23,519 nucleotides of DNA from the IMG/VR virus record IMGVR_UViG_3300030060_006245, positions 1 to 23,519 of that record; one strand, written 5' to 3'. Shown here piece by piece: positions 4,687 through 18,376 of this stretch. Position 1 is the stretch's first letter. Each line of letters starts with the position of its first letter. The position numbers and the translations under genes are program-made. A model generated the notes under the pieces. The model saw only the letters and a list, made by a program, of their open reading frames with translations. It was not told where the DNA came from and did no database searches. The stretch is from a virus.

Positions 4687-6864
4687 TTACACAGTTCCTA
4701 CAACTTCACTGAAGGAAACTCCAGTTCTTGTAGCAACAAATGTTAGACCAATGAAGTTGATTGATCTTGCTGGTTTCACAAAGATGTCAGCAAGGAATTC
4801 ATTGCGATCAATAACATCTGGTGTGTTGTTTGTTTCATCACATATGACGAGGAAGTCTTGAATACCTCTCTTCGCCTGAACATCCCTTAGGAATGGTTCA
4901 ACAATATTGATGAAGTTTGATCTTGTGCCTGCATCGTTGAGTTCAAAAAGAACTGATTTTGCAGCGTTTTCAATTGCTTGCTCTATTGTGATGAATAGTC
5001 TTCTTACGTTGATGCGATCAAATGCACTCTCAAATGAGAGAGCAGTTTTATCACCAAACAATACGATACCATCACCAGGTTTAGATGTGATTGGGTTGAT
5101 TCTATTTGAATACAACTGATCTCTTGCATCTCTACCAGGATTGAATGCAAGTTTGATTGCAAAGTTCAATCCACCTCTAGTGGTGCCTGCAGGTGAGAAC
5201 CAAGGGAAGAAATCTCTATCTGTTCTTACCATTGTGCCTGCAACATCTGCAGAAGCAGGCATGTAGATAAACTTCTTGTTGAATCTATCATACACATATT
5301 GGAATCCTGAATCAAATACAGCGTATGATGATGACGTAAGAGGTCCAAAGAAAGATAAGATGTTAGATAACTGAGTTGAGGAATCTGTAACATTCACCAC
5401 AGAATCTCTGTTGGGTGATATTACAGCAATGCAATCCTTTCTTCCTTCTGCTAAAGCAATGAGTTTATTTGCTTTTGCCTGCTCTTCCTCTTTTGTTCCA
5501 GAACATCCACCTTGTAAAAGGAATCTGATGTCACTGTCTATAGGATCAGCAAATTTCTCGTATGATGTCAACACATCACCCAATGGAGCATTGTATAATC
5601 CAACGCCAGTGTAATCAAGACCACCTGTAAGTGAATAACCCTGATTACCTATAGAACTAAACTTGATGTTTTTAGCGTCTTGTCCCCACGCACCTTCAGC
5701 AGAAGTAATTGATGTGAATCCAGTTGTAAATCCACCAGGCAATACGAGTGTATTATGATGTGCATCGTCTGCTGCAGTCACATGTTGTCCAGAGAATATA
5801 AACTCTGAACCCTCTGCTATGAAATCTTTGTAAAATATTGATTTACTTCCAGATGCTACTGCGTCTTTTGCTTTGGATAAGTTTGGAAACTTCTCCAAAA
5901 TTTGTCCGACATCTCCAGTGACTCCACCGCCAGCATCAATAACAACAATGTGAAGAGCATCGTTGTCTCCATCTCTTTTGGATACATAATCATTTGTCCT
6001 TGGTTTATTAAGTACAGATCTCCATGTGACTGTAGTAAAATCAGAACCACCGTCTGCCACACTTGTGAGTATGTTTTGACTGTTGTACCAGTCAGCAGAT
6101 GTGATTGTTGAACTCGACGCTACAGCAGATCCACTGTTGTTTACAAAACTAATCGCTGAACCAGTCTTAAATTCAAACTGTGTGTTTGATTGATAGTCAA
6201 CTAATTTTTCTACGCCACCTATGACTGTGCTTACAACTTTGACATCTATAGTTGTTGTTGTTTTACCAGTAACCACACCTTTTAGAACACCTGATGCAAA
6301 AGCGGTTGTACCAACCCCAACAGTGACTCCTGTCAAGTTCTGTTGTACACCAAATCCAATGTCAATATCAGCAGCAGTATCACTACCCTCATATGTTGGT
6401 GTGATTATTTGATCGGCAGCATTGTCAATCACCGCTACTTTTATGTTCTCTGCCCAGTGACCTGGATTTTTACCTGCGAAATACCAATTAGTATCATTCG
6501 CTTGATTATTATTATAATCTTCTAACCCCTCAAGTAATAGGGTTGTATTTGCCAAACCAACAGCAGCGTTTGCTGTATTGAGGTCACCTCCAACAGATCT
6601 TACGATGTCTAACTTACCACCGTATGATAAGAAATTGGATGCTGCATACCACGTTTCGTAGTGATAATCTGTGGTACCCACGCCTGGTTTACCAAATATT
6701 TCAACTAATTCATTCTCATTGTTTACTCTGGTGATCTCGTTACAAGGTCCCTTTGCGAAGGGAGCAGCTAAACCACCAACAACGTTCAGAGTGAAATCCA
6801 CTCCTCCTCTTGTGAGGTCTACCTCTCTAACTGAAATACCTGGAGATGCAAGTCTTAATGCCAT
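4687..6864 (-). CDS. 18: gp18 contractile tail sheath protein
   Basis: 725 residues (T4: 659). The N-terminus MALRLASPGISVREVDLTRGG and the block near residues 545-560 (FFPWFSPAGTTRGGL), then LYSNRINPI and GIVLFGDKTAL around 590-605, are standard for myoviral sheath subunits. The sheath contracts to drive the gp19 tube through the host envelope. The middle of the protein (roughly residues 150-370) is the variable, surface-facing part, rich in Thr, Val, Gly and Ser, and explains the extra length over T4. A good GGGAG ribosome site precedes ATG 6864 and a TATAAATA late box lies at 6902-6909. Downstream gp19 follows after 18 bases. Confidence 0.97.
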   Translation of the reverse strand: MALRLASPGISVREVDLTRGGVDFTLNVVGGLAAPFAKGPCNEITRVNNENELVEIFGKPGVGTTDYHYETWYAASNFLSYGGKLDIVRSVGGDLNTANAAVGLANTTLLLEGLEDYNNNQANDTNWYFAGKNPGHWAENIKVAVIDNAADQIITPTYEGSDTAADIDIGFGVQQNLTGVTVGVGTTAFASGVLKGVVTGKTTTTIDVKVVSTVIGGVEKLVDYQSNTQFEFKTGSAISFVNNSGSAVASSSTITSADWYNSQNILTSVADGGSDFTTVTWRSVLNKPRTNDYVSKRDGDNDALHIVVIDAGGGVTGDVGQILEKFPNLSKAKDAVASGSKSIFYKDFIAEGSEFIFSGQHVTAADDAHHNTLVLPGGFTTGFTSITSAEGAWGQDAKNIKFSSIGNQGYSLTGGLDYTGVGLYNAPLGDVLTSYEKFADPIDSDIRFLLQGGCSGTKEEEQAKANKLIALAEGRKDCIAVISPNRDSVVNVTDSSTQLSNILSFFGPLTSSSYAVFDSGFQYVYDRFNKKFIYMPASADVAGTMVRTDRDFFPWFSPAGTTRGGLNFAIKLAFNPGRDARDQLYSNRINPITSKPGDGIVLFGDKTALSFESAFDRINVRRLFITIEQAIENAAKSVLFELNDAGTRSNFINIVEPFLRDVQAKRGIQDFLVICDETNNTPDVIDRNEFLADIFVKPARSINFIGLTFVATRTGVSFSEVVGTV

Positions 6865-6920: not shown

Positions 6921-7604
6921 TTATCCGCACAAGTCATAAGAATCGTTCTCCCTTATCGATTGTCTGATCCCTGTATCTGATTCATCAACGTAATCTTTTG
7001 TTGGTTTTAAATTTTGCAATTCATCAGTCCACCACCTACATGAAATAATTTTATCAAATTCTATCCCCCTTGACTCCGCATCTTTTCTGCATGTCTCTGT
7101 GTCATTCTCATTGTAATTAAAAACCACATAATTCCATGTAGTTTTTATTCCCATGGCAGCACATCTTATCATCATATTATATAAAAACTTACCATCTTGC
7201 CCCTTTCTATACTTATGACTATCTTCTGGTCTACCATCTATTCCAAAAACCCATCTTACATTATGTCCTTTTGATATTTGAAATGCTTTAGTAAACCACT
7301 TACTTGGTCTTATTGTCGATGCAACATGAATGATTGTCTCAACATGTTTATCGACACACATTTGTAATAGGTCATGAAATCTAGGGTGCAATGATGGATC
7401 TGAAATAGTTCCGCAAAAAGATATCTCATCAAAGTAATCTGTTATTTTATTCATTTCATCTAACGTAATAGGTCTACCTGGTATAGATCCTACTATATCT
7501 TCAAAACCATTCAATCCATCTTGATATCTTTGTCTTGCACAACCTGCACATTTCAATGAGCAATGATTCGTGGTATCTAAATTGATTCCACGAAATTTAT
7601 CCAC
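6921..7604 (-). CDS. Radical SAM core protein (catalytic half of a split SPASM-type enzyme)
   Basis: 227 residues. The N-terminal motif CSLKCAGC (Cys15, Cys19, Cys22) is the CX3CX2C signature that binds the [4Fe-4S] cluster of radical S-adenosylmethionine enzymes. It is followed by typical barrel elements (EISFCGTISDPSLHP, VRWVFGIDGRPEDSHKYRKG). Such enzymes generate a 5'-deoxyadenosyl radical; with SPASM partners they usually modify peptides or proteins. The start must be GTG 7604, because a stop lies just upstream and every later ATG would lose the cysteines. That GTG overlaps the stop of the preceding SPASM-like ORF, so the two are translationally coupled. No SPASM domain is attached to its own C-terminus, which ends SYDLCG. 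The substrate is unknown. It lies between terminase and tail sheath, before the gp18 late promoter. Confidence 0.85.
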   Translation of the reverse strand: MDKFRGINLDTTNHCSLKCAGCARQRYQDGLNGFEDIVGSIPGRPITLDEMNKITDYFDEISFCGTISDPSLHPRFHDLLQMCVDKHVETIIHVASTIRPSKWFTKAFQISKGHNVRWVFGIDGRPEDSHKYRKGQDGKFLYNMMIRCAAMGIKTTWNYVVFNYNENDTETCRKDAESRGIEFDKIISCRWWTDELQNLKPTKDYVDESDTGIRQSIRENDSYDLCG

Positions 7605-7842
7605 AATACCGATGACAAATCATAGGAAGAGTTATGTCATGTCTCTCAACCTTATCGATAAATTCTTTCCATTCCTTAGAATCTAAAACCTCTTGCACTG
7701 TATTTTCTTTAAGATTGAATTTATCTTGTATCAACTCTGGTATGTATTTTTTATTTTGATTATCATACCAACAACATGGAAGGAGGTGTCCTGTAGCAGA
7801 CCACGCTAAGTAACCTCCATGTTCAAGGCATTTAGGTTTCAT
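7597..7842 (-). CDS. Stand-alone SPASM-like iron-sulfur domain protein
   Basis: 81 residues from ATG 7842, which overlaps the gp17 stop (ATGA) and has GGGAG 9 bases upstream; an in-frame GTG at 7857 is less likely. The protein looks like the auxiliary-cluster C-terminal domain of radical-SAM/SPASM enzymes: an early Cys5, the run GYLAWSATGHLLPCCWYD (Cys23, Cys24), a middle helix that fits the usual short stretch before the last cysteines (NTVQEVLDSKEWKEF), and a final CHRYC (Cys76, Cys80). In one-chain enzymes this domain follows the radical-SAM core; here it is a separate gene placed before it. It presumably supplies an auxiliary [4Fe-4S] cluster or substrate docking to the 6921-7604 product. 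The assignment is by pattern; no homologue was searched. Confidence 0.78.
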   Translation of the reverse strand: MKPKCLEHGGYLAWSATGHLLPCCWYDNQNKKYIPELIQDKFNLKENTVQEVLDSKEWKEFIDKVERHDITLPMICHRYCG

Positions 7843-9488
7843 AAATGATACTCCCACATGAATGACCTGTCACCATATTCATCTGCCTTCTTCCATCTAT
7901 CACCCTTATCATCAACCTCTTCAAAATCTTCCAATCCATCAATCACAAAACCAAATGGTGCCATGTCTTGTTCAATAGCATTCTTCTGTTCTTCGTATAT
8001 ACGTTTTCTTACATCTTGATCTGTCATTTCCTTGAAATAATCTTGTGCTACTAACCATGAGAATATAACAAGACACATGGCAAGGTCATCATTACATCCC
8101 TCTTCTGCCTCGAATGATTGCTTTCTTTGTATGAATGTGGTGAGTTCACTTATAATATTATAATCACAGAAAGTAAGTTTATCCTCTTCAATCAATGTCT
8201 TCAGGTTTGAACACCCGACCTTTTTCGTAGTGGTGCTCATCTTGACACCTAATTGTGTTTTGACACCAGAAAATCCCGATCCCACTATCTGACCTGCTCT
8301 ACCACGCATTGCTACCATAAGTAAGTTCTCATACTCTAAGTCGTAGAATAGTATAGATGCTACTTGATCTCCTATGTCATTGACTTCACATAGAACATAT
8401 GCATTATTGTATGCCTTTGCCACATCTTCAATCACAGAGGGAAAAAGCATGGGTTTTATTTCATTATCCTTAAAGGTGGCAACCACTCTGTAAGGGAAGT
8501 GTGTGATATCAACCACGACAAATGCACTATAATCTTTAGACACGCCTCTTGCCACATCGACTGTGACAATATAATCCCTATCTTTGAATGGTTTCTCATA
8601 GACAGACAGTTTGCCATTCTGTTCTATAGGTTGCTCATATACGAGTGATTTGAGTTTTGATGCTGCAATCAACGTGTCTACAGAACCTAAAAACTCACAC
8701 TCAAACTCAATAGCAAACTGTTGCTTGCTTGTGTTCTTTATCGTCTGTTCTTTCCATTTGGCATTTCTACCTGGCACCTCAGACCAGTGCACCTCCGTTG
8801 CAACATACTCATTCTGTCCCCTTTCAGCATCATGCCACATGCGATAGAAGTGGTTCATACCATGTGGAGTGGATACTATTATAACCTTCGTAGATTTACC
8901 AGAAGATATAGTAGGATACACCGACGCAAAGAAATCATCTGCAAGATGGTTCTGCACGAATGCAAACTCATCAAGGAAGATGATATTGAATGACATACCT
9001 CGAACTGCTGATGCAGATGTAGACGCTGCAATTATTTTTGATCCGTTTTCGAGTTCCATAGAACCCTTATTCCACGCAACGATTCCTTGCTGCATCCACC
9101 TCGGCAAGTTTTCATACGCCAGTTGTAATCGTCCGAGGAGATCTCTAGCAGTCGCTGCTTTATTAGCGAGAATTCCGATGTTGACATTATCGTTAAAGAT
9201 TGCGTAATGGAGTAGGTATGATACCACAGTTGTAGACTTACCAGTCTGACGAGGCATCTTACAAATATTGAATCTATGTTTATGAAAATTTCTTAGAAGT
9301 TTCTTTTGAAACTTATACATGTTAAAGTGAACCAGTCCTTCATCTACGTTTACTATTCGTATGTGTTTTTCAGTAAAGTATACTGGATCTGATTTGCATT
9401 TCAAATACTCTTGAATATCATCTTCTGTAAATTGAAGTTGAGTATTTGCTTTTTTTAGATTCGGATTACCAAGATAAATGTCACTCAT
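7839..9488 (-). CDS. 17: gp17 terminase large subunit
   Basis: 549 residues (T4: 610). It is the DNA-packaging motor ATPase and headful nuclease. The ATPase domain has Walker A at 78-86 (MPRQTGKST, Lys84), Walker B with the catalytic acid in IIFLDEFAF (Asp173, Glu174) and a coupling-type segment VIIVSTPHG at 202-210. The nuclease domain shows the expected acidic triad: Asp311 in VTVDVARG, Glu368 in LCEVNDIGDQ and Asp467/468 in GCNDDLA. Start ATG 9488 lies right after the upstream stop without a strong ribosome site. Its stop overlaps the SPASM-like gene. It works with gp16 and docks on the gp20 portal. Confidence 0.97.
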   Translation of the reverse strand: MSDIYLGNPNLKKANTQLQFTEDDIQEYLKCKSDPVYFTEKHIRIVNVDEGLVHFNMYKFQKKLLRNFHKHRFNICKMPRQTGKSTTVVSYLLHYAIFNDNVNIGILANKAATARDLLGRLQLAYENLPRWMQQGIVAWNKGSMELENGSKIIAASTSASAVRGMSFNIIFLDEFAFVQNHLADDFFASVYPTISSGKSTKVIIVSTPHGMNHFYRMWHDAERGQNEYVATEVHWSEVPGRNAKWKEQTIKNTSKQQFAIEFECEFLGSVDTLIAASKLKSLVYEQPIEQNGKLSVYEKPFKDRDYIVTVDVARGVSKDYSAFVVVDITHFPYRVVATFKDNEIKPMLFPSVIEDVAKAYNNAYVLCEVNDIGDQVASILFYDLEYENLLMVAMRGRAGQIVGSGFSGVKTQLGVKMSTTTKKVGCSNLKTLIEEDKLTFCDYNIISELTTFIQRKQSFEAEEGCNDDLAMCLVIFSWLVAQDYFKEMTDQDVRKRIYEEQKNAIEQDMAPFGFVIDGLEDFEEVDDKGDRWKKADEYGDRSFMWEYHL

Positions 9489-16190: not shown

Positions 16191-16209
16191 TAGTTCACAG
16201 GTACTGATT

Positions 16210-16929
16210 ATGATGAACAAAACGCTTGTCGTGCTCACGGGACCGCAAGGTTCGGGCAACCACCTCTGGTCTAAAATTTTCTCATTACACCAAGACGTTT
16301 TTGGTTGGAAGAGTCTTCTTGATAATTATTGGGAAGCTCACCGTTATTCAGAGCCCTTTGCGGAATATTGGAGGGATCCATCCACTCTGCATAAATTTGA
16401 CTGGTCGAAAAGTCAATATTTTTTTACTTCAATAAGTATCCCACTTGGCATACAAAGTAAAGGGACGAAATGGTGTCCAAACGTGGTGCAGTTTTGCACG
16501 AATGCTCAATCCTTGGGTGTCAAAACCAAGGTCATAGTCATAGGTAGGGATCAAACCATACTTCAAAATCAACAAAAAAGAATACGAGAAGAATCTACTA
16601 CAAGACATTTTCTTGATCAACTACATCAATTTAAGAATCCAACTTTTCTAAGTTATGAGTTATTATATTTGTATAAACAAGAGTATTTAAAATCATTAGA
16701 CATAGGTATACCTATAGCATGGTATGATGATAGAGTCAATGAAATATTAGAGATGGATTCAAATGCAAAATATATTCAATATGTAAAAGATAATATTTTA
16801 GATGACGGAAATAAAACAGGTGTTCCTTTTCTAGACAATCCATATAAAAAAGACGTAAATCCTATAAGACAAAGAGATCACTTATATGATGAAGAGGGTA
16901 AAACTGGTTCATTTTGTTGTCAAGACTAA
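16210..16929 (+). CDS. Sulfotransferase-like P-loop protein A
   Basis: 239 residues from ATG 16210 (a second ATG follows at once; AGG lies about 8 bases upstream). The N-terminus VVLTGPQGSGNHLWSKIFSLH is a P-loop of the sulfotransferase type (Gly-x-x-x-Ser-Gly, no Lys in the usual place). The later VIVIGRDQTILQNQQ resembles the 3'-phosphate-binding strand of that fold. A shared block reads GWKSLLDNYW and EPFAEYW. Clear paralogue of the protein at 17107-17724. Its substrate is unknown; PAPS-dependent sulfation or a kinase-like reaction are both possible. The first 330 bases are far more GC-rich than the rest, suggesting a mosaic gene. Its stop overlaps the next ATG (TAATG). Confidence 0.78.
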   Translation: MMNKTLVVLTGPQGSGNHLWSKIFSLHQDVFGWKSLLDNYWEAHRYSEPFAEYWRDPSTLHKFDWSKSQYFFTSISIPLGIQSKGTKWCPNVVQFCTNAQSLGVKTKVIVIGRDQTILQNQQKRIREESTTRHFLDQLHQFKNPTFLSYELLYLYKQEYLKSLDIGIPIAWYDDRVNEILEMDSNAKYIQYVKDNILDDGNKTGVPFLDNPYKKDVNPIRQRDHLYDEEGKTGSFCCQD

Positions 16930-17150
16930 TGAAGTTGTGGAGAATATGGGCAAAAGCATTAGGTGACAAATCAGGTAATACAGATAGAGAAGCAGATTAT
17001 GTCGCCATCATTAGAACCTTTATTTTTCTACAACTTATAATCACAAACTGTTTCATTGTTGGTGGCAACATCAGACATTGGAACGATCATCACATTCCAC
17101 CATCTTATGAAAAAACTATTGATAGTAACAGGACCTCAAGGGTCGGGTAA
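16929..17150 (+). CDS. Small single-span membrane protein of the plus-strand cassette
   Basis: 73 residues. ATG 16929 overlaps the stop of P-loop gene A (TAATG). After a basic amphipathic start (MKLWRIWAKALGDKSG) and an acidic turn (DREADYVAIIRT) comes one hydrophobic span of about 20 residues (FIFLQLIITNCFIVGGNI, residues about 30-48), then a polar tail with His and Lys. I recall small proteins beginning M-K-x-W-R-x-W-A-K-A-L-G as conserved but uncharacterised in T4-like cyanophages; that is from memory. Its last 44 bases overlap the start of P-loop gene B in another frame. Probably inner-membrane; role unknown. Confidence 0.75.
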   Translation: MKLWRIWAKALGDKSGNTDREADYVAIIRTFIFLQLIITNCFIVGGNIRHWNDHHIPPSYEKTIDSNRTSRVG

Positions 17151-17724
17151 TCATTTGTTCGCAAGATTACTTTCTGCTCATCCTAATGTAAAGGGTTGGG
17201 ATTCTCTTAAAGATAATTACTGGGTGCCTAGTGATGAAGAACCATTTGCTAGGTATTGGGTATATCCTGACGAACTTAAGTTTCCTGAGGGAGACTTCTT
17301 TTGTGCGAATGTATCTGTACCATTCTTTTATGATGGTGTAAGACAGACTCCTAAGATATGTGAGGTAGCAAGAAAAGCAATATCAATGGGTGTGATGCCT
17401 ATCATAGCAGTGATTGTAAGAGATAGAAATATAAATGAACTACAACAAAGACGTGTGGGTGGTGAAGTGACTATGGATATCGCATTAGATTACTACAAAG
17501 ATCTAGCAGTTCACTTCATAGACCATGAGGCATTCTTCTTATACAAAGAAAAATATTTAGAATATCTTGGACGTATCCTAGAATTTCCAATCACAAAAGA
17601 AGGCATCGACAATTTTATAACTGTCGATGCCAATCATAAGTATGTCTATCCGTGCAAAGAGCACTGGTTAGATAATGAAATTCGTAAAGGTCGTAAACCT
17701 TTTAGATCACGGCCAAAGGAGTAG
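17107..17724 (+). CDS. Sulfotransferase-like P-loop protein B
   Basis: 205 residues from ATG 17107, chosen because it gives MKKLLIVTGPQGSGNHLF, colinear with protein A; the upstream in-frame ATG at 17056 would add 17 unlikely residues. Shared with A: the P-loop, LSAHPNVKGWDSLKDNYW, EPFARYW, and VIVRDRNINELQQRR in the place of the 3'-phosphate motif. A and B are therefore diverged duplicates flanking the membrane protein. The 3' end overlaps the diiron-protein gene tail-to-tail by 23 bases, and a minus-strand terminator hairpin lies inside it at 17592-17631. No strong ribosome site is visible, so translation may depend on coupling with the overlapping upstream gene. Confidence 0.8.
   Translation: MKKLLIVTGPQGSGNHLFARLLSAHPNVKGWDSLKDNYWVPSDEEPFARYWVYPDELKFPEGDFFCANVSVPFFYDGVRQTPKICEVARKAISMGVMPIIAVIVRDRNINELQQRRVGGEVTMDIALDYYKDLAVHFIDHEAFFLYKEKYLEYLGRILEFPITKEGIDNFITVDANHKYVYPCKEHWLDNEIRKGRKPFRSRPKE
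17592..17631 (-). terminator. Intrinsic terminator for the diiron-protein transcript, antisense inside P-loop gene B
   Basis: Perfect 10-bp inverted repeat: GGCATCGACA (17602-17611), 10-base loop, TGTCGATGCC (17622-17631). Read on the minus strand the hairpin is followed by TTCTTTT, a usable U-rich tail; read on the plus strand it is followed by AATCATAAG, with no U tract. It starts 71 bases beyond the stop of the 17702-18376 gene, as expected for an intrinsic terminator. Confidence 0.65.
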
Positions 17725-18376
17725 CAGTGTTCTTGTTGGAGATCTCAAGAAGATCAACTCTCATTTTCTCAACCATATCTAGAATGCGAGTTTGCAATTC
17801 TGCATTACCCTCTACTAATCTAGAAAGTGCACGTCCACCTAAGTTTGAGTGGAACCCTTCATCTTTTGCAATAGTTTTGTAACGTGAGGAGATAAACTTG
17901 TCGTTTACACACTCTCCCATTTCATTCCATACTGCTTCTGCTCTACCCTCTGCTACCAATTGGTATGCAGCAAGTGCTGCCTCATCTTCTGATGCTTCAT
18001 ACTTATCTAAAAGTTCAGCACCTTTTGCTTGAGGTTTCTCTGCTTCAGCAGCGAATGCAGCAGCAACATCAAGTGGTTCACCTGTGATGTGCTCGATTAC
18101 TTCCTTTACCATACGGAAGTGCTTTGCTTCGTCCATAGCTTGACGGCTTAGAAGTTCTAAGTCTTTTACATCTGTAGAAGGATCAGAGGAGGCAACCTGA
18201 CCTGCGATAGCATACATGTTTTGAGCTTCGTTGACCATGCGTCCACGGAAGTGCTCAACTAGATACTCATCACTTGGGTTGGAAGCGAAGAAACGACGAA
18301 CGTTTGAGCGTGATGCATCAAACAATCCTTTGTTTCCTTCCTTGATCTTCTTTACAAAATCTGTTCCAGAAAGCAT
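17702..18376 (-). CDS. Ferritin-like diiron-carboxylate protein
   Basis: 224 residues, wholly helical. Two ExxH motifs (Glu83-x-x-His86 in MDEAKHF; Glu173-x-x-His176 in DEGFHSN), each preceded about 30 residues earlier by a further Glu (Glu50 in MVNEAQN; Glu143 in VAEGRAE, or Glu147), give the E/ExxH/E/ExxH ligand set of ferritin-like four-helix diiron proteins. The helix order fits two pairs joined by an Ala/Glu-rich linker (about 100-130). This superfamily includes ferritins, rubrerythrins, aldehyde-deformylating oxygenases and hydroxylases; which reaction applies here cannot be told. It looks host-derived: richer in Ala and GC than its neighbours. It has its own late box (18401-18407) and terminator, so it may be a single-gene unit. 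Confidence 0.8.
   Translation of the reverse strand: MLSGTDFVKKIKEGNKGLFDASRSNVRRFFASNPSDEYLVEHFRGRMVNEAQNMYAIAGQVASSDPSTDVKDLELLSRQAMDEAKHFRMVKEVIEHITGEPLDVAAAFAAEAEKPQAKGAELLDKYEASEDEAALAAYQLVAEGRAEAVWNEMGECVNDKFISSRYKTIAKDEGFHSNLGGRALSRLVEGNAELQTRILDMVEKMRVDLLEISNKNTATPLAVI

Follow-up and report, generated by a model that had tools for sequence, protein, structure and literature searches.

The analysed window is a 23.5-kb fragment of a marine, cyanomyovirus-like phage, the minus strand of which reads, in this order, a terminase large subunit, an 81-codon ORF, a 227-codon ORF and a tail sheath. The terminase gene (gp17; 7839..9488, minus strand; PF03237/PF17289, phrog_2) flanks the two ORFs upstream, and its product was 77–81% identical to those of Synechococcus myoviruses and of one marine single-cell virus. 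Its stop shares an ATGA overlap with the start of the small ORF (7842..7597, minus strand), which begins with ATG downstream of a Shine-Dalgarno-like GGGAG stretch and encodes a stand-alone SPASM/Twitch protein of 81 aa (PF13186), the predicted small subunit. An alternative GTG start at 7857, yielding 86 aa, is possible. The predicted catalytic subunit, a radical-SAM core of 227 aa (7604..6921, minus strand; PF04055), starts with GTG, and this start and the stop of the small ORF overlap by 8 bases (TGTGGATAA; 7597..7604, minus strand), an arrangement that probably serves translational coupling. The tail sheath gene (gp18; 4687..6864, minus strand; phrog_23, PF17482) follows downstream. A preceding sequence-only reading had located both ORFs, their lengths, the cysteines 5, 23, 24, 76 and 80 of the small protein and the stop/GTG overlap correctly to the base.

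The same pair was found in the same order in every close viral relative whose contig spans both genes. In Synechococcus phage S-BM3 the gap between gp17 and gp18 is empty, with the two genes adjoining and the pair missing, and in S-SM2 it holds an unrelated small gene for a PF09723 protein. The gap therefore looks like a site for passenger genes, and the position gives little functional clue for the window clade.

Elsewhere in the window, and on the other strand than the structural module, two neighbouring genes (16198-16929 and 17098-17724, plus strand) encode products that are 34% identical to each other and share a P-loop-like TGPQGSGNHL start. Pfam returned no family for either and PHROG none for the first; the products are possibly kinase- or sulfotransferase-like. 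A further gene (17702-18376, minus strand) encodes a ferritin-like/diiron protein, with sub-threshold matches only, to the ribonucleotide reductase small chain and PaaA/PaaC.

A radical-SAM core and a Twitch-type domain

The 227-residue protein scored 30.7 bits against the Pfam family Radical_SAM (PF04055; cut-off 29.5) and carries the CX3CX2C motif as Cys15/19/22, which, together with the partial TIM barrel in the modelled fold of a fused homologue, places it in the radical-SAM superfamily. The GGEP motif is replaced by FCGxxSDP, and extra domains are absent from both the N-terminus and the C-terminus. No RRE peptide-binding domain was detected on either chain, and the core starts at its first strand (MDKFRGINLDTTNHC), leaving no room for one.

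The small protein reached 21.7 bits against the Pfam SPASM family (PF13186), just above the cut-off of 21.5, and its earlier assignment as a SPASM-type domain can thus be retained in a narrower form. The full SPASM motif comprises seven cysteines (CX9-15GX4C-gap-CX2CX5CX3C-gap-C) for two auxiliary clusters, and its truncated form, Twitch, uses the first part of the motif for one cluster (PMC6231123). As the small protein holds only five cysteines (Cys5-x12-Gly18-x4-Cys23-Cys24 ... Cys76-x3-Cys80, i.e., CX12GX4CC...CX3C), it has the Twitch set, which fits a one-cluster form and not the seven-cysteine SPASM domain. These cysteines are the predicted ligands of one auxiliary Fe-S cluster. A chance cysteine pattern was ruled out by the homologues.

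The strongest evidence that the small protein belongs with the core is that other phages encode both as one chain. In hhalign comparisons with a profile of these fused homologues, the window-type core aligned onto columns 24-216 (probability 100, E 1.3e-76) and the small protein, next to it, onto columns 226-324 (probability 99.8, E 2e-29). This supports the small ORF as the missing SPASM/Twitch domain of the core and fits the two-subunit enzyme proposed by the sequence-only reading; the finding that would have spoken against that proposal, an unrelated zinc protein, is contradicted by homologues in which the small domain is fused to the core. The one-chain arrangement with an N-terminal core occurs in the fused relatives only, and the window holds two ORFs with the small one first.

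A structural model of one fused homologue (L150; pLDDT 88, pTM 0.87) matched solved two-domain enzymes over both domains, namely SkfB (TM 0.67), SuiB (0.65-0.68), MoaA (0.59-0.63), PqqE (0.51) and SpeY (0.40-0.42), with CteB also among the best matches. Such moderate TM-scores (0.4-0.68) fix the fold class but not the reaction. The small protein of the window, folded alone, gave a pLDDT of 82 and an order of strands and helices like that of the C-terminal part of the fused model. Folding relied on window and fetched-locus sequences only. Compared with solved structures, the model of the small protein alone yielded insignificant matches only, both to anSME (E 7-8), and a sequence search against solved structures returned nothing significant.

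Fused, split and reversed pairs in viral contigs

The search of other phages for paired and fused forms that the sequence-only reading had suggested was carried out by pattern scans of viral contigs, with the best 80 loci taken per scan, and core and small domains were mapped on all open frames of the loci found. At least 260-270 loci (approximately) gave 214 distinct module pairs, comprising 70 fused pairs with the core first, 99 split pairs in the order core-small and 45 split pairs in the order small-core of the window, where the counts are not to be read as frequencies. Every one of the 45 reversed and 99 ordinary split pairs has overlapping or abutting open frames. All full-length cores contain CX3CX2C (43 reversed, 95 ordinary split, 67 fused); the five cysteines of the small protein accompany it in 43 of 43 full-length reversed pairs, and the cluster ligands are kept in nearly all of the 95 ordinary ones and of the remaining pairs. 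Records with a single reversed core have exactly one small-domain gene, adjoining the core, and no other. Partnerless cores lie nearly all at contig ends; the few others comprise low-scoring hits to different radical-SAM proteins, L178, in which the frame is broken, and the single unexplained case of L070. Assembly error as the source of the split was ruled out by dozens of distinct sequences from independent metagenomes.

Distances between cores correlated with those between small domains (rho of 0.68 for reversed, 0.62 for ordinary split and 0.60 for fused pairs), and 0 of 999 permutations gave a correlation as high. Judged by these sequence distances, co-divergence is no weaker between split partners than between fused domains. 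When prokaryote genomes were scanned with the fused profile, five contigs only were found, all from metagenome-assembled genomes and several with phage-type neighbours, which makes this a mainly or wholly viral family. Among isolated phages, a close pair was present only in Pelagibacter phage Mosig, in the order core-small.

In a tree of 86 representative cores, each of the three architectures was clustered (9 changes versus 35 in shuffles). Fused and split forms occur together in some clades (L060/L079). Reversed pairs occupy two main places, the window clade, which adjoins fused proteins, and a second clade that is nested among the Mosig-type split pairs. With the core alone, a single reversed clade survived the AU test (p-AU 0.275), whereas the concatenation of core and small domain, which assumes a shared history of the domains, rejected it (p-AU 0.0027). 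Where the contig shows it, pairs of the window clade are placed between terminase and sheath, in some cases with one small gene intervening ahead of the sheath, and those of the second clade are mostly located between a DegT aminotransferase gene and another radical-SAM gene (DegT-MoaA). These different gene contexts agree with two origins, and the order was probably reversed on at least two occasions; the contexts and the concatenated test both stand against one ancient event, which the core alone would accommodate. For an origin by collapse of a tandem fused pair, with the small domain from the first copy and the core from the second, the trees lean in favour, the AU tests leave it undecided and the gene positions differ.

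The term 'permuted' in the sequence-only reading was too strong, since the chains are separate and only the order of the genes differs. In Mosig the pair is split as well, with the genes in the usual sequence, and a change of order costs none of the cluster ligands.

Several loci showed additional arrangements. Both orders occur in one phage in L078, L243, L257 and L258, where a core-small pair is followed about 2 kb on by a small-core pair, the two flanking SGNH-like and DegT genes. Tandem fused radical-SAM/Twitch paralogues surround the terminase small-subunit gene in L132, L135, L148, L150, L154 and similar loci (neck - CS - gp16 - CS - TerL). One core followed by two small-domain genes was seen in L085 (3878-5242), L086, L160 and L245, and extra small-domain genes are also present in L234 and L237; the two small genes behind one core are possible alternative small subunits.

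Gene context and candidate substrates

In the Mosig-type clade, the genes typically run in the order c4 (a gene without assigned function), core, small, SGNH-like (by eye), DegT aminotransferase, radical SAM and carbamoyltransferase, with nitroreductase-like or weakly GT8-like genes further on. Another set of loci (L057, L067, L068, L179, L181) encodes the small domain in one chain with a glycosyltransferase-like domain, which in L054/L060/L079 is a separate gene just downstream (phrog_1962 glycosyltransferase, E 3e-5). A DxD motif was noticed in the Twitch-glycosyltransferase-like fusions L057:4620-5552 and L067/L068:4596-5501, where the Twitch domain is N-terminal, and in L072:4594-5676 the N-terminal small Twitch domain is, by eye, fused to a tail of different sequence. 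The host-recognition islands of pelagimyophages reportedly contain radical-SAM cassettes as well as glycosyltransferases presumed to alter the host O-chain (PMC7029224). Within the window clade, just 1 of 8 longer records contained a DegT gene, and the terminase-sheath site is not part of a sugar cluster. Fused relatives lie between the neck and terminase-small genes or between the two terminase genes, and many relatives are part of sugar-type clusters away from the packaging genes.

With regard to the sugar-type neighbours and the glycosyltransferase fusion in other clades, we favour sugar or glycan chemistry over a virion protein as the target. As other clades, but not the window pair itself, show such neighbours, they only weakly suggest that the substrate here is a sugar or glycan which is synthesised or modified in the course of infection, to decorate the host surface or the virion. 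Twitch dehydrogenases of the BtrN/SpeY type oxidise a secondary alcohol of an aminocyclitol or sugar, and with those of aminocyclitol antibiotics the oxidation step is followed by transamination. By analogy, oxidation followed by transamination is our preferred, if tentative, guess for the phage enzymes.

Alternatively, the two-subunit enzyme could modify a structural protein or peptide of the phage (virion or tail), and the position between terminase and sheath would then reflect late co-expression with the target. The location of the window-clade pairs and of the fused relatives near terminase genes is consistent with such a role, and since the closest full-length structural matches include RiPP maturases, SkfB being the top one, the substrate may be a peptide. 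However, SkfB, CteB and SuiB all carry an RRE (PMC6231123), whereas the core of the window lacks this or any other peptide-binding domain. The gp17-gp18 gap, empty in S-BM3 and filled by a PF09723 gene in S-SM2, resembles a site for passengers, and many relatives are encoded in sugar-type clusters away from packaging genes. A virion or tail target therefore seems rather unlikely, and the 'peptide- or protein-modifying' function with a possible virion target put forward in the sequence-only reading went too far, as the core has no peptide-recognition domain and sugar-type enzymes and glycosyltransferases stand beside other clades.

A probable two-subunit enzyme and known systems

Taken as a whole, the best explanation, to which we assign a probability of roughly 0.8, is that the two genes of the window encode two subunits of one radical-SAM/Twitch enzyme. 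It builds on domain identity, conserved pairing, co-divergence, fused homologues and conserved ligands, all established at the sequence level, from which we infer a physical complex, its cluster content and its chemistry. The larger subunit would bind the SAM-cleaving [4Fe-4S] cluster and generate the 5'-deoxyadenosyl radical. The small subunit would carry an auxiliary Fe-S cluster, as is the established role in this family, dock beside the active site at the position of the C-terminal Twitch domain of the fused homologues, and either accept the electron of the substrate radical or help to hold the substrate. The fused form represents the known arrangement, which the phages presumably split repeatedly while shuffling the gene order, and translational coupling instead of fusion would provide near-equal amounts of the subunits. 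Whether this extends to a large phage family of split radical-SAM enzymes, with Twitch as an exchangeable subunit whose coding sequence may precede, follow or lie within the catalytic gene and which is sometimes present in two copies or fused to a glycosyltransferase, we consider an even call; if true, one radical core could be combined with different substrate-facing subunits.

The small protein could instead be a free electron-transfer or regulatory Fe-S protein that serves several phage radical-SAM enzymes. Small genes outnumber cores in L085/L086, L160, L245 and L234, and one clade has small domains joined to a glycosyltransferase-like domain, as might be expected of such a protein, but 1:1 pairing, overlap and co-divergence in nearly all loci, single-copy records with one of each side by side and the existence of fused homologues make this improbable. 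A programmed frameshift that joins the ORFs into one small-then-core chain, a true permutation, would be compatible with the 8-base overlap; on reading, however, no X XXY YYZ slippery heptamer was seen in the overlap, the core frame of the L025 group opens with its own ATG right after an in-frame stop and other phages have the opposite split order, so that we regard it as very improbable. Decay, either as a fused enzyme broken by mutation or as a pseudogene remnant, is hardly credible despite the fused relatives and the clades of mixed forms (L060/L079), given that one frameshift cannot yield the reversed order, that the split state is clustered on the tree, that ligands are kept in the 43 reversed and nearly all of the 95 ordinary full-length split pairs, and that dN/dS against L003 (protein about 90% identical to the window pair) was 0.05 for the core and 0.03 for the small gene, the dS of the latter being near saturation.

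What the auxiliary cluster does in SPASM/Twitch enzymes is disputed and difficult to examine, since the domain is part of the catalyst's own chain. With a natural two-subunit version, in vitro work could supply or leave out the cluster subunit, mutate it or exchange it. Many radical-SAM genes are known from phages, with 12 in one T4-like genome (PMC5332604). A search of mostly open-access literature turned up radical-SAM cassettes in phages, whereas no description of a split SPASM/Twitch enzyme was found, and the naturally split phage radical-SAM/Twitch family is apparently undescribed. In the Baltic Sea, 261 viral 'ahbD' hits were obtained, with three contigs only containing both PF13186 and PF04055 (PMC9301287); AhbD itself is a heme synthase that contains two auxiliary clusters (PMC10452713). 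The pattern could stem from split pairs, or from cores in which the Twitch domain scores weakly. As a warning for annotation, stand-alone cores and Twitch proteins of marine phages are filed as MoaA-like or 'hypothetical', and hundreds of phage enzymes, many adjoining sugar-modifying genes, are seemingly unrecognised as two-subunit enzymes.

A close known counterpart is found in Pelagibacter phage Mosig EXVC030M, where the same split pair (Mosig_00084/Mosig_00085; 34% and 33% identical) is encoded by overlapping genes. It differs from the window in that the core precedes the small gene and in that the pair is clustered with genes for a DegT aminotransferase, a carbamoyltransferase and a nitroreductase and is not located beside the terminase. 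The Mosig genes (MT647606.1, 62425-63391; L001:5974-6940) were deposited as 'molybdenum cofactor biosynthesis enzyme' and 'hypothetical protein'. The fused phage homologues (L054, L060, L065, L104, L132, L150 and others), mostly 35-75% identical to each other, possess the same core, Twitch domain and cysteine set, but as a single chain of about 270-350 residues with the core first, often in two to three copies around the terminase genes. With SPASM/Twitch enzymes such as SkfB, BtrN, MoaA, SpeY, PqqE, SuiB and anSME, the phage family shares a CX3CX2C core, which in the fused relatives is followed by a C-terminal CX12GX4C...CX3C domain. In contrast, the auxiliary domain of the window is a separate protein of 81 residues encoded before the core, and the core has neither an RRE nor any other extra domain and carries FCGxxSDP instead of GGEP.
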